From NCBI GenBank assembly GCA_963205295.1, contig CAUJIY010000062.1, positions 1 through 47,168 on the forward strand: a stretch of DNA of 47,168 nucleotides. The letters are read 5' to 3'. Source of the stretch: Pseudomonadota bacterium. GTDB taxonomy: Bacteria > Pseudomonadota > Gammaproteobacteria > Steroidobacterales > GCA-2729495. The notes under the pieces were generated by a model. It saw only the letters and a list, made by a program, of their open reading frames with translations. It ran no database searches and was not told the DNA's origin. Made by a program: the position numbers and the translations under genes. Positions 2,020 through 8,798 of the stretch are shown here, piece after piece (the first letter of the stretch is position 1; the number at the start of each line of letters is the position of its first letter).

Positions 2020-2168
2020 CGCGCGTGTACCGGGTCCGCGGGCCGTCAGGGCACCGATTGTCGCACAGCGTCCGGGCAGTACGGGAATCCACGACCGCCC
2101 GGCGCGGCTGGATCGGTTATAAGATGCACTTCGTCAGCGCGATCGCGGCCGCGAGTGGAGGAGCCGAC

Positions 2169-2492
2169 GTGCCTTTTGTCGTCACCGAGAACTGCATCAA
2201 CTGCAAACACACGAGCTGCGCCGAGGTCTGCCCCGCTGACTGTTTCCGCGAAGGGCCGAACTTCCTGGTGATCGACCCGGAGCTGTGCATCGACTGCATC
2301 TTCTGCGTGCCGGCGTGCCCGGTTGGCGCCATCATGGAGGAGCGCGACGTGCCGGTTGCCCAGAAGGCGTTCGTGCGCCTCAATGCGGAGCTGGCTGCGG
2401 TCTGGCCGAAGATCACGGCACGGCGGGCGCCGCCGCCCGATGCGGAGGAGTGGGACGGCCTGCCGGGCAAGCTCAGGCTGCTGGAGCGCTAG
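2169..2492 (+). CDS. fdxA: 7Fe ferredoxin of the FdxA type
   Basis: Small cytoplasmic electron carrier with one [3Fe-4S] and one [4Fe-4S] cluster, 107 residues, the usual FdxA length. The GTG start at 2169 gives the classic N-terminus [13 protein letters not shown] and has GGAGGAG 5 nt upstream; the open frame extends further 5' but without family sequence. Cysteines at 9, 12, 17, 21, 25, 40, 43, 46 and 50 match the Azotobacter ferredoxin I pattern: 9, 17 and 50 would hold the 3Fe cluster, and 21, 40, 43 and 46 the 4Fe cluster. A TATAAG hexamer near 2117 could be its -10. It is divergent from nifJ, so reduction by pyruvate oxidoreductase is the simplest inference. Its stop overlaps the stop of the convergent downstream gene. 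Confidence 0.93.
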
Positions 2493-3082
2493 TTCCGGCT
2501 GGCGGGCCCGGGAGGTCCGCCGGTCCAGTGATCGGTCGAGAAGTTGCGCTGCGCGACCAGGCGTCCGGTTTCGTCGAACGCCTCCCAGAGCCCGTCGCGC
2601 CGACGGTTGGCAAAGCATCCGCGCTTCTTCAGCTGTCCGTTGGGATAGAAATATTCCCACAGGCCCTCGAGGCGGCCTTCCCGGTACTGGCCGCGCTCGG
2701 CAAGCCGCCCGCTCTCGTAGAACTGTTCGTACGGCCCGTCGCGCTCGCCGTCACGATACGTGGCCCGTTCCCACAACCGCCCGCCGTCGTAGTAGCGCTC
2801 GAACACGCCCTCGGGCCGGCCCTCCACCGAGTTGCCCTTGAGCTTCACATGCCCGGACTCGTAGTACAGGGTCCACGGGCCGTGGCGTTCGCCATTCCTG
2901 AACGAGCTTCGCAACGAGATCTGGCCGTTCTCGTGGTAGAACTCCCAGGGGCCCTCCTGCTTGCCGTTGAGGTAGTCACCCCGGCATTTGGACTGGCCGC
3001 TGCCATAGAACCGCTCCGCGGGTCCGTCCGGCGGCCGGAAGTGCTGGTAGACGGCCCTAACCACCATGATGAGCTTGATCAT
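2489..3082 (-). CDS. YwqK/MORN-type repeat protein, 7 repeats
   Basis: 197-residue protein made almost wholly of seven repeats with a strict 24-residue period, each of the form G-P/L-W/Y-E-x-(F/Y)-Y-x-x-G-(Q/R)-L. This is the MORN-like repeat of proteins annotated as YwqK family antitoxins. An ATG start at 3082 has AGGAG 8 nt upstream. There is no signal peptide or clear membrane span; the N-terminus ([15 protein letters not shown]) is mildly hydrophobic. It sits 15 bp behind a second, longer protein of the same design and is presumably cotranscribed with it. The family's molecular role is poorly known; MORN-like repeats often bind lipids or partner proteins. No toxin gene is adjacent, so the antitoxin label should not be taken literally. 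Confidence 0.85.
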
Positions 3083-3097: not shown

Positions 3098-3877
3098 CTA
3101 TTCCGGGTGCAGCATCCCGTCCCGGTAGCTGCCTTTCTGCTCGAGGCGGCCGTCTTCGGCATAGAGCTCGTAAGGGCCTTCCGGAGATCCCGCCCGGCAG
3201 CTGCCGCGCGCACGCAACTGGCCATTGGCGTAATAGGCCTCGAAGGGTCCTTCCTGCTGGCCGTCCTGGTAGTGCTCGCGGGTCTTGAGCTGGCCGTTCG
3301 GGTGATAGGCCTCGAGCACGCCGGTCGGTTGCCCATCGGCATAGCGCGTGCGTTGCCGCAGTTGCCCGGTTTCGTAGAACTCCTCCCAGTCGCCGCTGCG
3401 CAGGCCGGCTGTGAAATGTCCGCGGGCATCTGCCTGGCCGTTGTCGAAAAACGACGTATAGGGGCCATCACGGCTGTCGTTGCGGTGGGTGCCGCGTGAG
3501 CGCAGCTCGCCGTTGGCGTGGAAGACCTCGAACGGACCCTGGCGTGTACCCTGCTGAAAACAGCCGTGGGAGCGCGGCTGTCCGTTTTCGTGGACCATCT
3601 CCCAGGGGCCTTCCTTGCGCCCCAGCTGGTAGTCCTGGCGCTCCAGCAGCTGGCCGTTGCGGTGAAACCACGTCTGCAGGCCATGCAGTTCGCCGTCCTG
3701 GTAATGGCCGCGGAACTCGACCTGGCCGTTCTCGTAGAACGACTCATACGGTCCGTCCCGCTGCCCCGCCTTGTTGGTGCCTCGTGCCCGCAGGCGCCCC
3801 TCCTCATCATGCATTTCATAGGGGCCGTCTGCGGGGATGTCGTCATCGGACGACCGGAACCAGGAGAGTATCTTCAC
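3098..3877 (-). CDS. YwqK/MORN-type repeat protein, 10 repeats
   Basis: 259-residue protein with ten consecutive 24-residue repeats (G-P-Y/F-E-x-F/Y-Y-x-N-G-Q-L-x-x-R-G pattern) starting near residue 18, with a short non-repeat N-terminus (MKILSWFRSSDDD). I chose the GTG at 3877 because AGGA lies 7 nt upstream; another in-frame GTG at 3910 would add 11 residues. It is the first gene of a two-gene unit with the seven-repeat paralogue 15 bp downstream, and the two probably arose by duplication. It reads away from nod across a shared intergenic region. Function is unknown; partner binding is the safest guess for such repeats. Confidence 0.83.
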   Translation of the reverse strand: MKILSWFRSSDDDIPADGPYEMHDEEGRLRARGTNKAGQRDGPYESFYENGQVEFRGHYQDGELHGLQTWFHRNGQLLERQDYQLGRKEGPWEMVHENGQPRSHGCFQQGTRQGPFEVFHANGELRSRGTHRNDSRDGPYTSFFDNGQADARGHFTAGLRSGDWEEFYETGQLRQRTRYADGQPTGVLEAYHPNGQLKTREHYQDGQQEGPFEAYYANGQLRARGSCRAGSPEGPYELYAEDGRLEQKGSYRDGMLHPE

Positions 3878-4160: not shown

Positions 4161-6569
4161 ATGAGCACAAAAGCCGTCAGCAGTACCGGCAGCTCTAATC
4201 TGGCGATGTGGATGCTGAATAAGAAGAACTGGTTTGCCCAGTTCCTCGTCGTCGCCGCGATTAGCGTGGTCGGATTGATCTATCTTGGCCAGCAGACCTA
4301 TAGCGGCGCACCGCCGCTCGTCAACTTCGTATCCCCCACTGGCGAAGTGGTGGCATCCGAAGCCACCATCAAGCGCGGCAAGGAAGTCTTCCACCTCCGC
4401 GGCCTGATGGGCTATGGCTCATTCTGGGGTGATGGTGCGGACCGCGGTCCGGACTTCACCGCCGACGCCCTGCATCGCACCGTGGTCGCCATGCGCGAGT
4501 ACTACACGGACGAACTCAAGGCGAAGAACGGCACCGACACGCTCACGGCCTTCGAGAGCGACGCGATCGGCCAGCGCGTGATCCGCGAGCTGCACACCAA
4601 CACCTACGACGAGCAGGCTGGCCATATCGTGCTGACCGATGGACAGGTCTACGCTCTCGGCGTGCTGGACAAGCACTACGCGCGCATGTTCACCGACCCG
4701 ACCTACAAAGATCGCATGGATCCGATCGGTCAGGTGTCCGGCGAGGACAACCTCCGCGCCGTCTCCGCGTTCTTCTTCTGGGGCGGCTGGGTTGCTGCTG
4801 CCAACCGCCCGGGCGAGGTATACAGCTACACCCACAACTGGCCGTATGACCCCGAGGCTGGCAACTACGCCACCACGGCCACGATGGTGTGGACCTTCAT
4901 CTCCATCTTCGCGCTGTGGATCGGCATCATGGTGGTGCTGTACGTCTACGGCCAGATGAAGATGCAGCCGGTGGACCTGTTCGATACCCAGGGCGGTACC
5001 GGCGGCCACGCGCTGACGACCTCCGATCTCGAGAACGGCTACGTGCGTCCCACGCAGCGTTCGACCTACAAGTTCTTCGGGCTGGCTGTGGTGGTGTTCG
5101 GCATCCAGGTGCTCGCCGGCATCATCAGCGCGACGGACTTCCTGCGTCCCTTCGGCATCGATCTCAACAACCTGGTGCCGTTCACGGTCTCGCGCAGCTA
5201 CCACACGCTGCTGCAGATCTACTGGTTCTTCATGTGCTGGGTCGGTTACACGATCTTCTTCCTGCCCCGGCTCACGAAGGTTCCCAACGGGCAGAAGTTC
5301 CTGATAAACCTGCTGTTCGTGCTGGCGGTTGTCGTTGCGGTCGGTGCGGTGGGCGGTATCTATACCGGCCAGCGCGGCTGGCTCCCGAACGACGAGATCA
5401 GCTACTGGTTCGGCAGCCAGGGTTGGGAGTTCATCGAGCTCGGCCGCTTCTTCCAGCTGGTGCTGCTCGGTGCCTTCACGCTGTGGATCTACATCATCTT
5501 CCGCGGTGTGAAGCCCTGGCTCACCATGAAGAACGTCTGGTCCGTCCCCGCCTGGCTGCTCTGGGGCAGCGGCGTGATGGTCCTGTTCCTGTTCTTCAGC
5601 GTGCTGATGACGCCGAGTGACAACTTCGCCATCTCCGACTACTGGCGCTGGATGACGGTTCACATGTGGGTGGAGGTCACCTTCGAGGTGTTCACCACCG
5701 TCATCGTGGCCTACCTCCTGGTCCAGATGGGTCTGGTCACGCGCCTGATGGCAGAGCGGGTCATCTTCCTGGCCGTCATGCTGTTCTTCGTCACGGCGAT
5801 CAACGGCATCTCGCACAACTTCTACTGGATTGCCAAGCCGACCGGCATCATTGCGGTGGGCAGCGTGTTCTCCACCCTCCAGGTGTTGCCGCTGCTGCTG
5901 CTGACGCTGGACGCCTGGCAGATGCGCCAGGAAGGCGGTCGTGCCAACGAGTTCCGCGTCCAGGGCAAGCAGGCGCACGTCATGGAAGGCGTGTGGCTGT
6001 TCATCCTCGGCGTGAACTTCTGGAACGTGTTCGGTGCCGGCGTGTTCGGTTCGCTGATCACGCTGCCGCTCGTGAACTACTACGAGCACGCCACGTACAT
6101 GACCCTGAACCACGCGCACGCGGCGATGTTCGGCGTCAAGGGCAACGTGGCGCTGGCAGGCCTGCTGTTCTGCTGCCAGCACCTGTTCCAGAAGTCCGCC
6201 TGGAACGACAAGCTGGTGCGCACCTCGTTCTGGTCGCTCAACATCGGCGTCGGCCTGATGATGTTCCTCGACATGTTCCCGGTCGGGGTCTATCAGATCT
6301 GGCTGGTGCTGACCGAGGGCTTCTGGTACGCGCGCACGTCCGAGATCATCACGGGTCCGGTGTTCGTCACCCTGACGTACCTGCGCATGATCGGTGGCGC
6401 CCTGTTCGTCTTCGGTGGCCTGCTCCCGCTGATCTGGTTCGTGCTCTCGCGCGGCAACCGGCTGCAGCCGGAGGCCGATGTGGGCACGGACGAGTGGGCC
6501 CAGTACCAGAAGGAGTACGGCAAGGAAGCCGGCCGCGAGTGGGCGACTCAGGAGGAGCCCCGCGTCTGA
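4161..6569 (+). CDS. nod: Putative nitric oxide dismutase (Nod), divergent qNOR-family protein
   Basis: Integral inner-membrane protein of the quinol-type NO reductase family; 802 residues, with an ATG at 4161 preceded by GAGGAA. N-terminal anchor about 27-45, then a periplasmic cytochrome-c-like domain without CxxCH (FHLRGLMGYGSFWGDGADRG, 77-96), then a multi-span catalytic part. Conserved: H348 (SYHTLLQIYW), H501/E505/E509 (HMWVEVTFE), H552, and the heme-binding pair H651/H653 (LNHAHAAMFG). Altered: the FeB His-His is H552-N553 (GISHNFYW), and the active-site Glu expected in FSALE is Q574 (FSTLQVLPL). The spacings H501/E505/H552/N553/Q574 equal H508/E512/H559/H560/E581 of Geobacillus qNOR minus 7. 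His-to-Asn and Glu-to-Gln at these places are what is described for NO dismutase (2 NO to N2 + O2) in M. oxyfera and strain HdN1. The alternative is an unusual qNOR. Activity is inferred, not shown. Confidence 0.88.
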   Translation: MSTKAVSSTGSSNLAMWMLNKKNWFAQFLVVAAISVVGLIYLGQQTYSGAPPLVNFVSPTGEVVASEATIKRGKEVFHLRGLMGYGSFWGDGADRGPDFTADALHRTVVAMREYYTDELKAKNGTDTLTAFESDAIGQRVIRELHTNTYDEQAGHIVLTDGQVYALGVLDKHYARMFTDPTYKDRMDPIGQVSGEDNLRAVSAFFFWGGWVAAANRPGEVYSYTHNWPYDPEAGNYATTATMVWTFISIFALWIGIMVVLYVYGQMKMQPVDLFDTQGGTGGHALTTSDLENGYVRPTQRSTYKFFGLAVVVFGIQVLAGIISATDFLRPFGIDLNNLVPFTVSRSYHTLLQIYWFFMCWVGYTIFFLPRLTKVPNGQKFLINLLFVLAVVVAVGAVGGIYTGQRGWLPNDEISYWFGSQGWEFIELGRFFQLVLLGAFTLWIYIIFRGVKPWLTMKNVWSVPAWLLWGSGVMVLFLFFSVLMTPSDNFAISDYWRWMTVHMWVEVTFEVFTTVIVAYLLVQMGLVTRLMAERVIFLAVMLFFVTAINGISHNFYWIAKPTGIIAVGSVFSTLQVLPLLLLTLDAWQMRQEGGRANEFRVQGKQAHVMEGVWLFILGVNFWNVFGAGVFGSLITLPLVNYYEHATYMTLNHAHAAMFGVKGNVALAGLLFCCQHLFQKSAWNDKLVRTSFWSLNIGVGLMMFLDMFPVGVYQIWLVLTEGFWYARTSEIITGPVFVTLTYLRMIGGALFVFGGLLPLIWFVLSRGNRLQPEADVGTDEWAQYQKEYGKEAGREWATQEEPRV

Positions 6570-6798: not shown

Positions 6799-7230
6799 AT
6801 GCTGAAACAACGGTGGCAGCGGTTACACAGCTGGCAGAAGTTCTGGCTGATGTTCGCGACGTTTTTCCTGGTCTCCATCTGTGCGGTCATCATCGCCGCC
6901 TGGCCGAAGGCTGACCCGGCGATCGTCGCGAACCTGCAGTCACCGGCCTGCAGTTCCTGGCGCGCCTTGCCGGACGGCAGCTGGCCGGACACCTATCCGG
7001 TCGAATCCGACCCGTGCCGTGCGCTGCGCCTGTTTGCCCTGGAGCAAAAGACCCCGCTCCACACGGAGGCGGACTACGAGGCCTATCTCATGCAGGCCGG
7101 GATCCGCACGACGTTGAGTTTCCTGGCGGTCTGGGCTGGATTTTTCACAGCGGTGTACCTGATCGGCTGGTCGACAGCGAAGGCTTCCGGTTGGGTTCTG
7201 CGCAAGCGTTCCCAACGCTCCGCATCCTGA
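6799..7230 (+). CDS. Small membrane protein, unknown family
   Basis: 143 residues, with an ATG at 6799 preceded by AGGGA. Predicted membrane spans are at about 15-34 and 100-123, with a loop of about 65 residues between them containing two cysteines (C51, C73) and several tryptophans and prolines; the loop is probably periplasmic and could carry a disulfide. The C-terminus is basic. I recognise no family. It opens a three-gene run of membrane proteins, 64 bp before the next, starting 139 bp after the nod terminator. Position suggests, but does not prove, a role connected with NO metabolism. Confidence 0.75.
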   Translation: MLKQRWQRLHSWQKFWLMFATFFLVSICAVIIAAWPKADPAIVANLQSPACSSWRALPDGSWPDTYPVESDPCRALRLFALEQKTPLHTEADYEAYLMQAGIRTTLSFLAVWAGFFTAVYLIGWSTAKASGWVLRKRSQRSAS

Positions 7231-7294
7231 TACCACCCGATGCAGGCGGCACGGTGGTGATACCTGGCTGGCGCCGGCCGCATCCCGGACATCC

Positions 7295-7651
7295 ATGATC
7301 TTCGCCATCACCATCGGTTTTTTCTGCGGCGCTTTCGTGGCCTTCCACGTGTCGCGCTGGCTCGTCGGGTACATGTCCCGGCGCATGGCCCGTGATGATC
7401 ACCAGCGCCGTTTCATGCGCTCCGTGGCCATCATCTTCGGCGCCATCTCGCTCGCACCGACCATTTTTTTCACGGTCATGGCCGGGGCGGTCATCAACCG
7501 CAGCGGTGCTGCGGATCTCGAGCTGCCGGGTTTCGGGGCCGCCGGCATTCCGGTGGCCCTGGCGCTCGCTCTCGTGGCCATGATCACCGTCATCGTCGCA
7601 ACCGCTGCCGTCGCCGGCGCAGCCTTCGGTTACCTGGCCGCCCGCAAGTGA
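7295..7651 (+). CDS. Small membrane protein, unknown family
   Basis: 118 residues with an ATG at 7295 and no strong ribosome-binding site. Hydrophobic segments lie at about 1-18, 43-65 and 82-114, with a basic cytoplasmic-type loop (SRRMARDDHQRRFMR) between the first two. Composition is dominated by A, V, I and G. No family recognised. It lies between a two-span protein and an NnrS-like protein in the same direction with 60-65 bp gaps, so all three may be one transcript. Confidence 0.7.
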   Translation: MIFAITIGFFCGAFVAFHVSRWLVGYMSRRMARDDHQRRFMRSVAIIFGAISLAPTIFFTVMAGAVINRSGAADLELPGFGAAGIPVALALALVAMITVIVATAAVAGAAFGYLAARK

Positions 7652-7712
7652 CATCGACAGCCGGTACCGGCAGGTCGCAATACCGGGTGCCGGAGCAAGC
7701 CAGGCCTGCCGC

Positions 7713-8798
7713 GTGAACCTCGCGGATCTCGCCAGCCGCCTGCCGTTGCTGCTTGCGGCCGTCGCCGCCCTGGTCGCGGGCATTGCCGTCGGACTGGCGC
7801 GCCTCGGTGTCGACCTGCCGGCTGCGGTTCCCTATATCGCCGACCACGGGATACTGATGGTGGCGGCATTTTTCGGTACGGTCATCGGTCTCGAGCGCGC
7901 TGTCGCCCTCGGGCGACCCTGGGCGCTGCTTGCTCCCGTCGGGGCGGCTGTTGGCGGGCTCGCGCTGCTGGCCCGGCTGCCCACAGCCTGGGTGACAGCT
8001 TTTTTCGTGGCTGGCGCCACCGGATTTCTCCTGGTCAGCATCGTCATCATGCGACGGCACCTGGTGCTGCACGCCGTGGTGCTCGCCATTGCTGCCGCGG
8101 CACTGCTGTGCGGCCACGTGCTCTGGCTGGCGGGTGCCGGGCCCGAGACCGCATTGCCCTGCTGGCTGGCGTTCCTCGCGCTGACGATCGCGGGAGAGCG
8201 CCTCGAGCTGACGCGCGTGCTGCCGCCGGCACCGGGGGCGCGGACCACGTTCCGGTTCATCCTCGGGGGCGTACTGGCCAGTGCTGCACTGGCGAGCTCG
8301 CCCTGGGTAGCGGGGCGGTCGCTGTTCGGGCTGGCGCTGGCTGCGCTCGCGCTCTGGCTGCTGCGCTTCGACGTCGCCCGGCGTACGGTGCGCGATCGTG
8401 GGCTGACGCGCTACATCGCCGTGTGCCTGCTCACCGGCTACGGCTGGCTTGCCCTGGCCGGGCTGCTCGGCGCTGGCGGCGGCTTTGCCGTCGGCGATCC
8501 CTGGCGCGATACCGCGCTGCACGCTTTCACGCTCGGCTTCGTCATCTCCATGGTCTTCGGGCATGCGCCGGTGATCGTGCCGGCCATCACCGGTGCCCGC
8601 GTCGCCTGGACAGGGCTGTTTTATCTTCCGTTCGGCGTGTTGCACGGGTCGCTGGCAGTGCGTGCCGCCGGTGTGCTGCTCGGTGACGTGACCCTCGTAC
8701 GCAGCGGTGCACTCGGCAACGCGCTCGCCATTGCGCTCTTCGCGGCGACGCTGGTGTCCGCGCTGCTGCGTGGCCGGTTCCACACCGGCCGGCGCTGA
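7713..8798 (+). CDS. Polytopic membrane protein resembling NnrS-type proteins
   Basis: 361 residues, GTG start at 7713, predicted 10-12 membrane helices. Conserved-looking histidines sit in or next to helices: DHGILMVAAFFGTVIGLERA near 47-66 and LHAFTLGFVISMVFGHAP near 271-288. The latter recalls the His-rich helix of NnrS, a heme- and copper-containing membrane protein associated with NO stress and denitrification. NnrS is usually about 400 residues, and I cannot confirm membership without a profile search. The location behind nod supports a link with NO handling. It may be cotranscribed with the two small membrane proteins upstream; glnE starts 50 bp downstream. Confidence 0.6.
   Translation: MNLADLASRLPLLLAAVAALVAGIAVGLARLGVDLPAAVPYIADHGILMVAAFFGTVIGLERAVALGRPWALLAPVGAAVGGLALLARLPTAWVTAFFVAGATGFLLVSIVIMRRHLVLHAVVLAIAAAALLCGHVLWLAGAGPETALPCWLAFLALTIAGERLELTRVLPPAPGARTTFRFILGGVLASAALASSPWVAGRSLFGLALAALALWLLRFDVARRTVRDRGLTRYIAVCLLTGYGWLALAGLLGAGGGFAVGDPWRDTALHAFTLGFVISMVFGHAPVIVPAITGARVAWTGLFYLPFGVLHGSLAVRAAGVLLGDVTLVRSGALGNALAIALFAATLVSALLRGRFHTGRR

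Follow-up and report, generated by a model that had tools for sequence, protein, structure and literature searches.

Does the gene at positions 4161..6569 of the forward strand of the window (the whole stretch of 47,168 nucleotides analysed here, from a member of the order Steroidobacterales) encode an NO reductase of the qNOR family, or a putative NO dismutase (Nod) that would convert NO to N2 and O2 and not to N2O? The reaction proposed for Nod is the dismutation of NO into N2 and O2 (PMC3413370). According to the available text of a 2026 report (PMC13386854), Nod has yet to be isolated and there are results that oppose its proposed role. The ability of Nod to make O2 from NO is debated; the genome described here carries a Nod and a canonical qNOR together. 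An earlier note on the same DNA had assigned it to a gammaproteobacterium, an origin that holds, and the gene to the Nod group. The occurrence of nod in gammaproteobacteria and in Steroidobacterales is already in print, with strain HdN1 as the classic gammaproteobacterial case (PMC3413370) and with nod reported from Steroidobacterales and many other Pseudomonadota (PMC13386854). The window gene is thus a new member of a family that is by now widespread, a study of one lake having reported it for 66 of 1,362 MAGs (PMC13386854).

Active-site residues

The nod ORF starts with an ATG, which is also the start in the nearest relative, L018 (94% identity), and its 802-aa product, which has no CxxCH motif, comprises a NorB cytochrome-c-like domain (residues 56-229) and a COX1 domain (residues 302-747). 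All nine residues singled out in the earlier note (H348, H501, E505, E509, H552, N553, Q574, H651 and H653) are found at the positions it gave, and the constant offset of 7 that it described relative to the Geobacillus qNOR (3ayf: H508, E512, H559, H560, E581) is seen in our alignment, where N553 and Q574 are matched with H560 and E581. The His552-Asn553 codons at the FeB site (5814..5819, forward strand), occupied by His-His in qNORs, read CAC and AAC, and the codon of Gln574, which takes the place of the catalytic Glu (5880..5882, forward strand), reads CAG. N553 and Q574 occur in 120/120 homologues (the best 120 of 2700 matches over the threshold), and the same Asn and Gln are present at all 80 genome loci collected (the best 80 of 446), so that neither a sequencing error nor a slip of the alignment can account for these two codons. 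The five His and two Glu residues that we checked are likewise kept throughout both sets. By record title, the 80 loci come from gamma-, alpha- and betaproteobacteria, Acidobacteria, Planctomycetota, Myxococcota or Deltaproteobacteria, Bdellovibrionales/Oligoflexia and Bacteroidota.

Loss of the quinol site is a third mark, beyond those named in the earlier note. Residues H328, E332 and D746 of 3ayf, the last of which we take to belong to the quinol site, align with T325, R329 and G746 of the window protein (codons 325-329 at 5133..5147, forward strand), and F336 aligns with a gap. H328, E332 and F336 are named as quinol-site residues in PMC10286720, a study in which Thr and Arg occupy the first two of these positions in 55 of 88 environmental nod clones. 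Neither His at position 325 nor Glu at position 329 was found in any of the 120 homologues (the best 120 of 2700). Among the 80 loci (the best 80 of 446), position 325 is more variable (T 27, H 20, M 12, E 10, other 11), Glu at 329 does not occur and Asp at 746 occurs once, in L090. Loss of His328 is therefore not universal in the Nod family, given that 20 of the 80 loci have His at 325, whereas loss of Glu332 is universal among the 120 homologues and 80 loci examined.

Membership in the Nod family

The Nod family has been defined by Asn in place of one FeB His, Gln in place of Glu and the lack of a proper quinol-binding site (PMC3413370). The window protein has N553 for the coordinating FeB His, Q574 for the catalytic Glu, and T325, R329, G746 and the gap at F336 in place of a proper quinol site, and it keeps the remaining five His residues, the arrangement of membrane helices (in the predicted fold) and the hydrophilic domain devoid of heme c. 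It also groups with known Nods apart from qNORs. In the tree, 65 Nod rows are split from 10 qNOR rows with a support of 100 (SH-aLRT, quick method), the outgroup consisting of mutually related qNORs, close kin of the qNOR of this genome, with long branches that meet at the root. The window protein falls within a 17-row gammaproteobacterial clade that includes HdN1 (support 98 in the same tree). The tree was built with the HdN1 Nod and without that of M. oxyfera, and 16 of the 80 loci were omitted, namely, 11 Bacteroidota of L076-L097 and five near-duplicates, none of which has a MORN gene. Assignment to the canonical qNORs was considered and rejected because the His-His pair and Glu of the FeB site and the quinol-site pair H328/E332 are missing, and the tree also separates the two groups.

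An AlphaFold2 model of the window protein (26 sequences, mean pLDDT 75) had qNORs as its ten best PDB matches, with 3ayf at the top (TM-score 0.81). Residues 560-562 and 635-649, which are near the site in sequence, have pLDDT values below 50, and for this reason we make no claim on site geometry. Collectively, the window protein has a predicted qNOR fold with Asn for one FeB His, Gln for the catalytic Glu and other residues at the qNOR quinol site. The phylogeny and the structure model, both of which the earlier note had put forward as checks, place the protein in the Nod clade and give it a qNOR-like fold, so that Nod membership, supported by the residues, the quinol-site loss, the tree and the predicted fold, is as well established as sequence data allow.

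A conserved ferredoxin-MORN-nod block

Divergently from nod, and separated from it by 346 bases, lies a gene for a MORN-repeat (MORN_2) protein of 238 aa (3098..3814, reverse strand), followed by a gene for a second MORN_2 protein of 197 aa (2489..3082, reverse strand) and by a ferredoxin gene (2124..2492, forward strand) whose 122-aa product contains 4Fe-4S domains and DUF3470; all three are proposed accessory genes. Beyond them, a pyruvate:ferredoxin oxidoreductase (PFOR) gene is cut by the contig end (1-2019, reverse strand). Enzymes of the PFOR class are often O2-sensitive, and here one is encoded close to a gene predicted to make O2.

Across 91 nod loci of differing length (the best 80 of 446 plus 11 short ones, several of which are the same contigs), relatives of the MORN proteins were found at 26 and this ferredoxin at 16, followed by each of three small ORFs behind nod at 7, PFOR at 3, and GlnE and each of the four genes after it at 1. 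When neighbours within 6 kb were clustered, the MORN and the ferredoxin clusters were each present at 17 of 81 loci (the 80 and the window), and these 17 loci are exactly the 17 rows of the Nod clade that includes HdN1; within the stretch examined, neither gene was found at the other 64 of the 80 loci. The MORN genes are divergent from nod in the window and at the 16 further loci of the block. By repeat count, L032, L036 and HdN1 have one MORN ORF each, HdN1 showing two places by tblastn, and HdN1 is the only one of the 17 in which the ferredoxin gene is inverted. The block extends to HdN1 at 37-39% identity for MORN and 62% for the ferredoxin. At L018, PFOR, GlnE and sugar genes flank it as well.

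The distribution of these genes was followed in 396 sampled genomes of the order, 15 of which have nod at E <= 1e-180, a threshold at which pieces can be missed, as two were. Eight of the 10 genomes of the genus are among these carriers (a 5' piece was found in a ninth), as are 6 further genomes of the family and, with a distant copy (45%), one genome of another family, G262. The larger MORN protein was matched at E < 1e-49 in 18 genomes of the host family, 14 of which also gave a nod match (in G143 as a 3' piece on another contig). Of the other four, G191 and G131 show, beside MORN, a 5' piece of nod that is truncated by the contig end, and in G174 and G185 the contig leaves just 358 and 431 bases next to MORN, not enough for nod to be seen. 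Conversely, MORN is present in each of the 14 family members with nod, and at least 20 further family members listed lack a MORN match, none of them being a nod carrier; these include G077, which belongs to the same genus and is given as 100% complete. Within the host family, no testable exception to the joint occurrence of MORN and nod was found. Weaker MORN matches (E 7e-16 to 6e-33) in 11 genomes of other families, which gave no nod match, are probably other MORN proteins, and G262, the sole nod carrier outside the family, has no MORN match.

A search for the ferredoxin in 20 genomes of the family showed two copies in each of the four that have nod, one near nod (67-77% identity to that of the window) and one elsewhere (57-59%); of the 16 genomes without nod, 11 have one copy and five have two, with best identities of 51-63%. 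In a tree of 41 ferredoxins, 21 nod-side sequences are split from 20 others at 100/100, a bootstrap that had not settled; all 20 others come from the host family, and five of 29 matches that lacked a locus were omitted. Judged by identity and tree position, the nod-side ferredoxin is a separate paralogue in the host family. On gene co-occurrence alone, we propose that the ferredoxin and the MORN gene or genes are accessory to the gamma-type Nod. Co-occurrence is no proof of a joint MORN-nod function because adjacent genes are also lost together.

Downstream genes and upstream elements

The three small ORFs behind nod span 6799-8798 of the window, and the pair at 6799-7651 is found near nod, in varying places, in close relatives. 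For the third ORF (7713-8798), an identity as NnrS was considered and dropped because the match was below threshold (12.3 bits, cut-off 28). Its relatives lie 6-8 kb from nod at four Bacteroidota loci. At the Bacteroidota loci L076-L096, nod is flanked variously by genes that we labelled by eye as Rrf2-type regulators, NorB/NorC-like, OsmC-like and anaerobic ribonucleotide reductase genes.

An FNR-like box precedes nod at -91 to -101 in L019-L023, that is, in five of the six nearest relatives, and at -323 in HdN1. It is thus found at 6 of the 17 block loci, against 0.2 expected by shuffling, a post hoc count because the pattern was chosen after the alignment had been seen. The box is absent from the window, from L018 and from nine others of the 17.

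NO and O2 in the host genome

The host genome (2.97 Mb in 172 contigs, 94% complete, 2.3% contaminated) encodes six COX1-family proteins, which are an aa3 oxidase (CtaD, 706 bits, cut-off 671), a cbb3 oxidase (CcoN, 754 bits, cut-off 583), Nod, a qNOR and two NOR-like oxidases. The qNOR, on contig C145, is 33% identical to Nod and has the canonical His-His and Glu as well as the quinol-site residues, with H, E and D kept in the quinol columns. An Rrf2-like regulator, labelled by eye, adjoins its gene. In the two NOR-like oxidases, the Tyr position, read by eye, is occupied by Gln on C101 (GHSSQQI) and by Asn on C112 (GHTLVNL); a table in PMC8756737 gives Gln at this position as the mark of eNOR and Asn as that of sNOR or CuANOR. 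In two loci of the same genus, eNOR-type subunits II and I are encoded downstream of nod (L022:12202-14474 and L023:7097-9375, the Gln having been read in L022); in the genome studied here, a similar eNOR sits on the separate contig C101.

On the supply side, NarG (2162 bits, cut-off 1084) and the NirS family PF02239 (508 bits) were detected in the genome, and NirK remained below its cut-off. With TIGR04246, the NosZ search of the genome returned only CuA tails, this model being under its cut-off in all 14 controls too; with PF18764, 10 genomes of the same genus gave no match, but neither did the controls, which leaves the TIGR04246 search as the one that we rely on. From NarG, NirS and the set of NOR-type enzymes it follows that the cell likely makes NO from nitrate and has four candidate NO-removing enzymes, of which Nod alone is predicted to give N2. 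With NirS, NarG, aa3 and cbb3 present, both a supply of NO and users of O2 therefore likely exist.

Candidate oxygenases were sought in two families, and only a fatty-acid desaturase was found. The FA_desaturase family gave a single match that is acyl desaturase-like by its His boxes (HRDQAH, HRKHH and HNNHH) and unlike AlkB; a ring-hydroxylating dioxygenase was not found in the genome. A molybdenum enzyme encoded at the locus L015 (contig C142) scored 843 bits for the type II DMSO reductase family, short of the cut-off of 985, and in part matched ethylbenzene dehydrogenase; it is possibly an O2-independent hydroxylase.

Proposed function and alternatives

The explanation that best accounts for the whole of these observations, with a probability of about 0.7 in our estimate, is that the protein is a Nod-family membrane enzyme whose predicted reaction converts two NO to N2 and O2, without light, and not NO to N2O. 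The residue changes would fit dismutation, given that a proper quinol site is missing, the metal site is changed and the catalytic Glu is lost. In the scheme that we propose, NirS would make NO from nitrite, NO would bind at heme b3-FeB, and two NO would be disproportionated without outside electrons. Inside the cell, the O2 would then serve the cbb3 or aa3 oxidase and O2-dependent enzymes such as the acyl desaturase, the canonical qNOR would maintain the N2O route, and the ferredoxin and one or two MORN proteins may act as accessory factors in assembly, activation or regulation. The earlier note had proposed that the organism can make O2 and N2 from NO and run an intra-aerobic metabolism. Of this interpretation, the Nod membership is supported, and the production of O2 and N2 and the intra-aerobic metabolism are predictions.

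Several points count against this explanation: the opposing results in print (PMC13386854), the three other NOR-type enzymes of the genome, with which NO could be handled without dismutation, the two oxygenase-family searches that gave only an acyl desaturase, and the uneven loss of the quinol site across the family. A possibility that we take seriously, while holding it to be the less probable one, is that the role of the enzyme is NO detoxification and not O2 supply, with NO removed without spending reducing power and O2 as a by-product. Rrf2-type regulators (labelled by eye) near nod at 20 of 81 loci, NsrR next to nod in print (PMC13386854), the FNR-like box in five of the six nearest relatives, and the search of two oxygenase families that produced the desaturase and no other intra-aerobic candidate would all agree with such a role. 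However, a canonical qNOR and two further NOR-like enzymes are already available for it, the FNR-like box is missing from the window and from L018, and detoxification is itself compatible with the dismutation chemistry. Quite improbable in our judgement is an NO reductase that no longer uses quinol, draws its electrons from another donor such as the nod-side ferredoxin, and yields N2O: the qNOR-like fold and heme ligands and the separate ferredoxin paralogue that goes with this Nod clade are in line with it, but all 120 homologues (best 120 of 2700) and all 80 loci (best 80 of 446) differ from qNOR in the FeB ligand and in the catalytic Glu, and such a ferredoxin is missing from the stretch examined at 64 of the 80 loci. 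Moreover, ferredoxins are cytoplasmic and the c-like domain faces the periplasm, which also counts against this electron route.

The block itself can be read in two ways. The ferredoxin and MORN genes could be bystanders that persist through the vertical inheritance of a single locus, a reading to which we give about even odds: the block occurs in a single Nod clade, neighbouring genes are gained and lost jointly, and PFOR, GlnE and sugar genes also flank nod in the closest relative, L018. Yet among the 91 loci, which differ in length, MORN (26) and the ferredoxin (16) recur more often than each small ORF (7), PFOR (3) and GlnE (1), the block reaches HdN1 with MORN identities of 37-39% (62% for the ferredoxin), and each of the four nod genomes searched has a second ferredoxin in addition to the nod-side one. 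The more ambitious idea, that gamma-type Nods are a small system in which a dedicated ferredoxin and MORN proteins, encoded next to nod from this genus to HdN1 and missing along with it in relatives, assemble, prime or regulate the predicted O2-making enzyme, is offered tentatively and as the doubtful end of our proposals. If true, it would offer part of an explanation for the failure to isolate Nod and would provide a handle for active expression. A limited literature search, including the available text of PMC13386854, turned up no mention of MORN together with nod, and the conserved block is a new lead on what Nod may need. Cultivated nod holders exist (HdN1, Magnetovibrio blakemorei, Roseovarius amoyensis, Terasakiella brassicae, and Algoriphagus and Cecembia species), and direct tests are therefore possible.

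Comparison with known systems

With the canonical qNORs (Geobacillus 3ayf, Neisseria, Alcaligenes and the host's own on C145), the window Nod has the fold, the histidines and the NorB c-like domain in common, whereas the His-His pair, the Glu and the quinol site are retained only in the qNORs. The two Nods of 'Ca. Methylomirabilis oxyfera' (DAMO_2434 and DAMO_2437) share the family definition (PMC3413370), a likeness by description because their sequences are not among the loci compared; they are encoded near pMMO genes (PMC13386854), none of which are present in the 47,168-nt window. The closest counterpart is HdN1 (L050, P0096), whose Nod is 65% identical to that of the window, belongs to the same clade, has the same His-Asn pair and Gln, and likewise lacks the qNOR quinol pair, with W and K in its place. 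HdN1 is an alkane user, and its growth on hexadecane with nitrite, which would need O2, and on the C16 alcohol with N2O, which would not, is documented (PMC3413370). Its genome has genes for two or three monooxygenases (PMC3413370), whereas the sole FA_desaturase-family match of the genome described here is unlike AlkB. As in the window, a MORN gene and the ferredoxin gene adjoin nod in HdN1, the ferredoxin gene in the opposite orientation.
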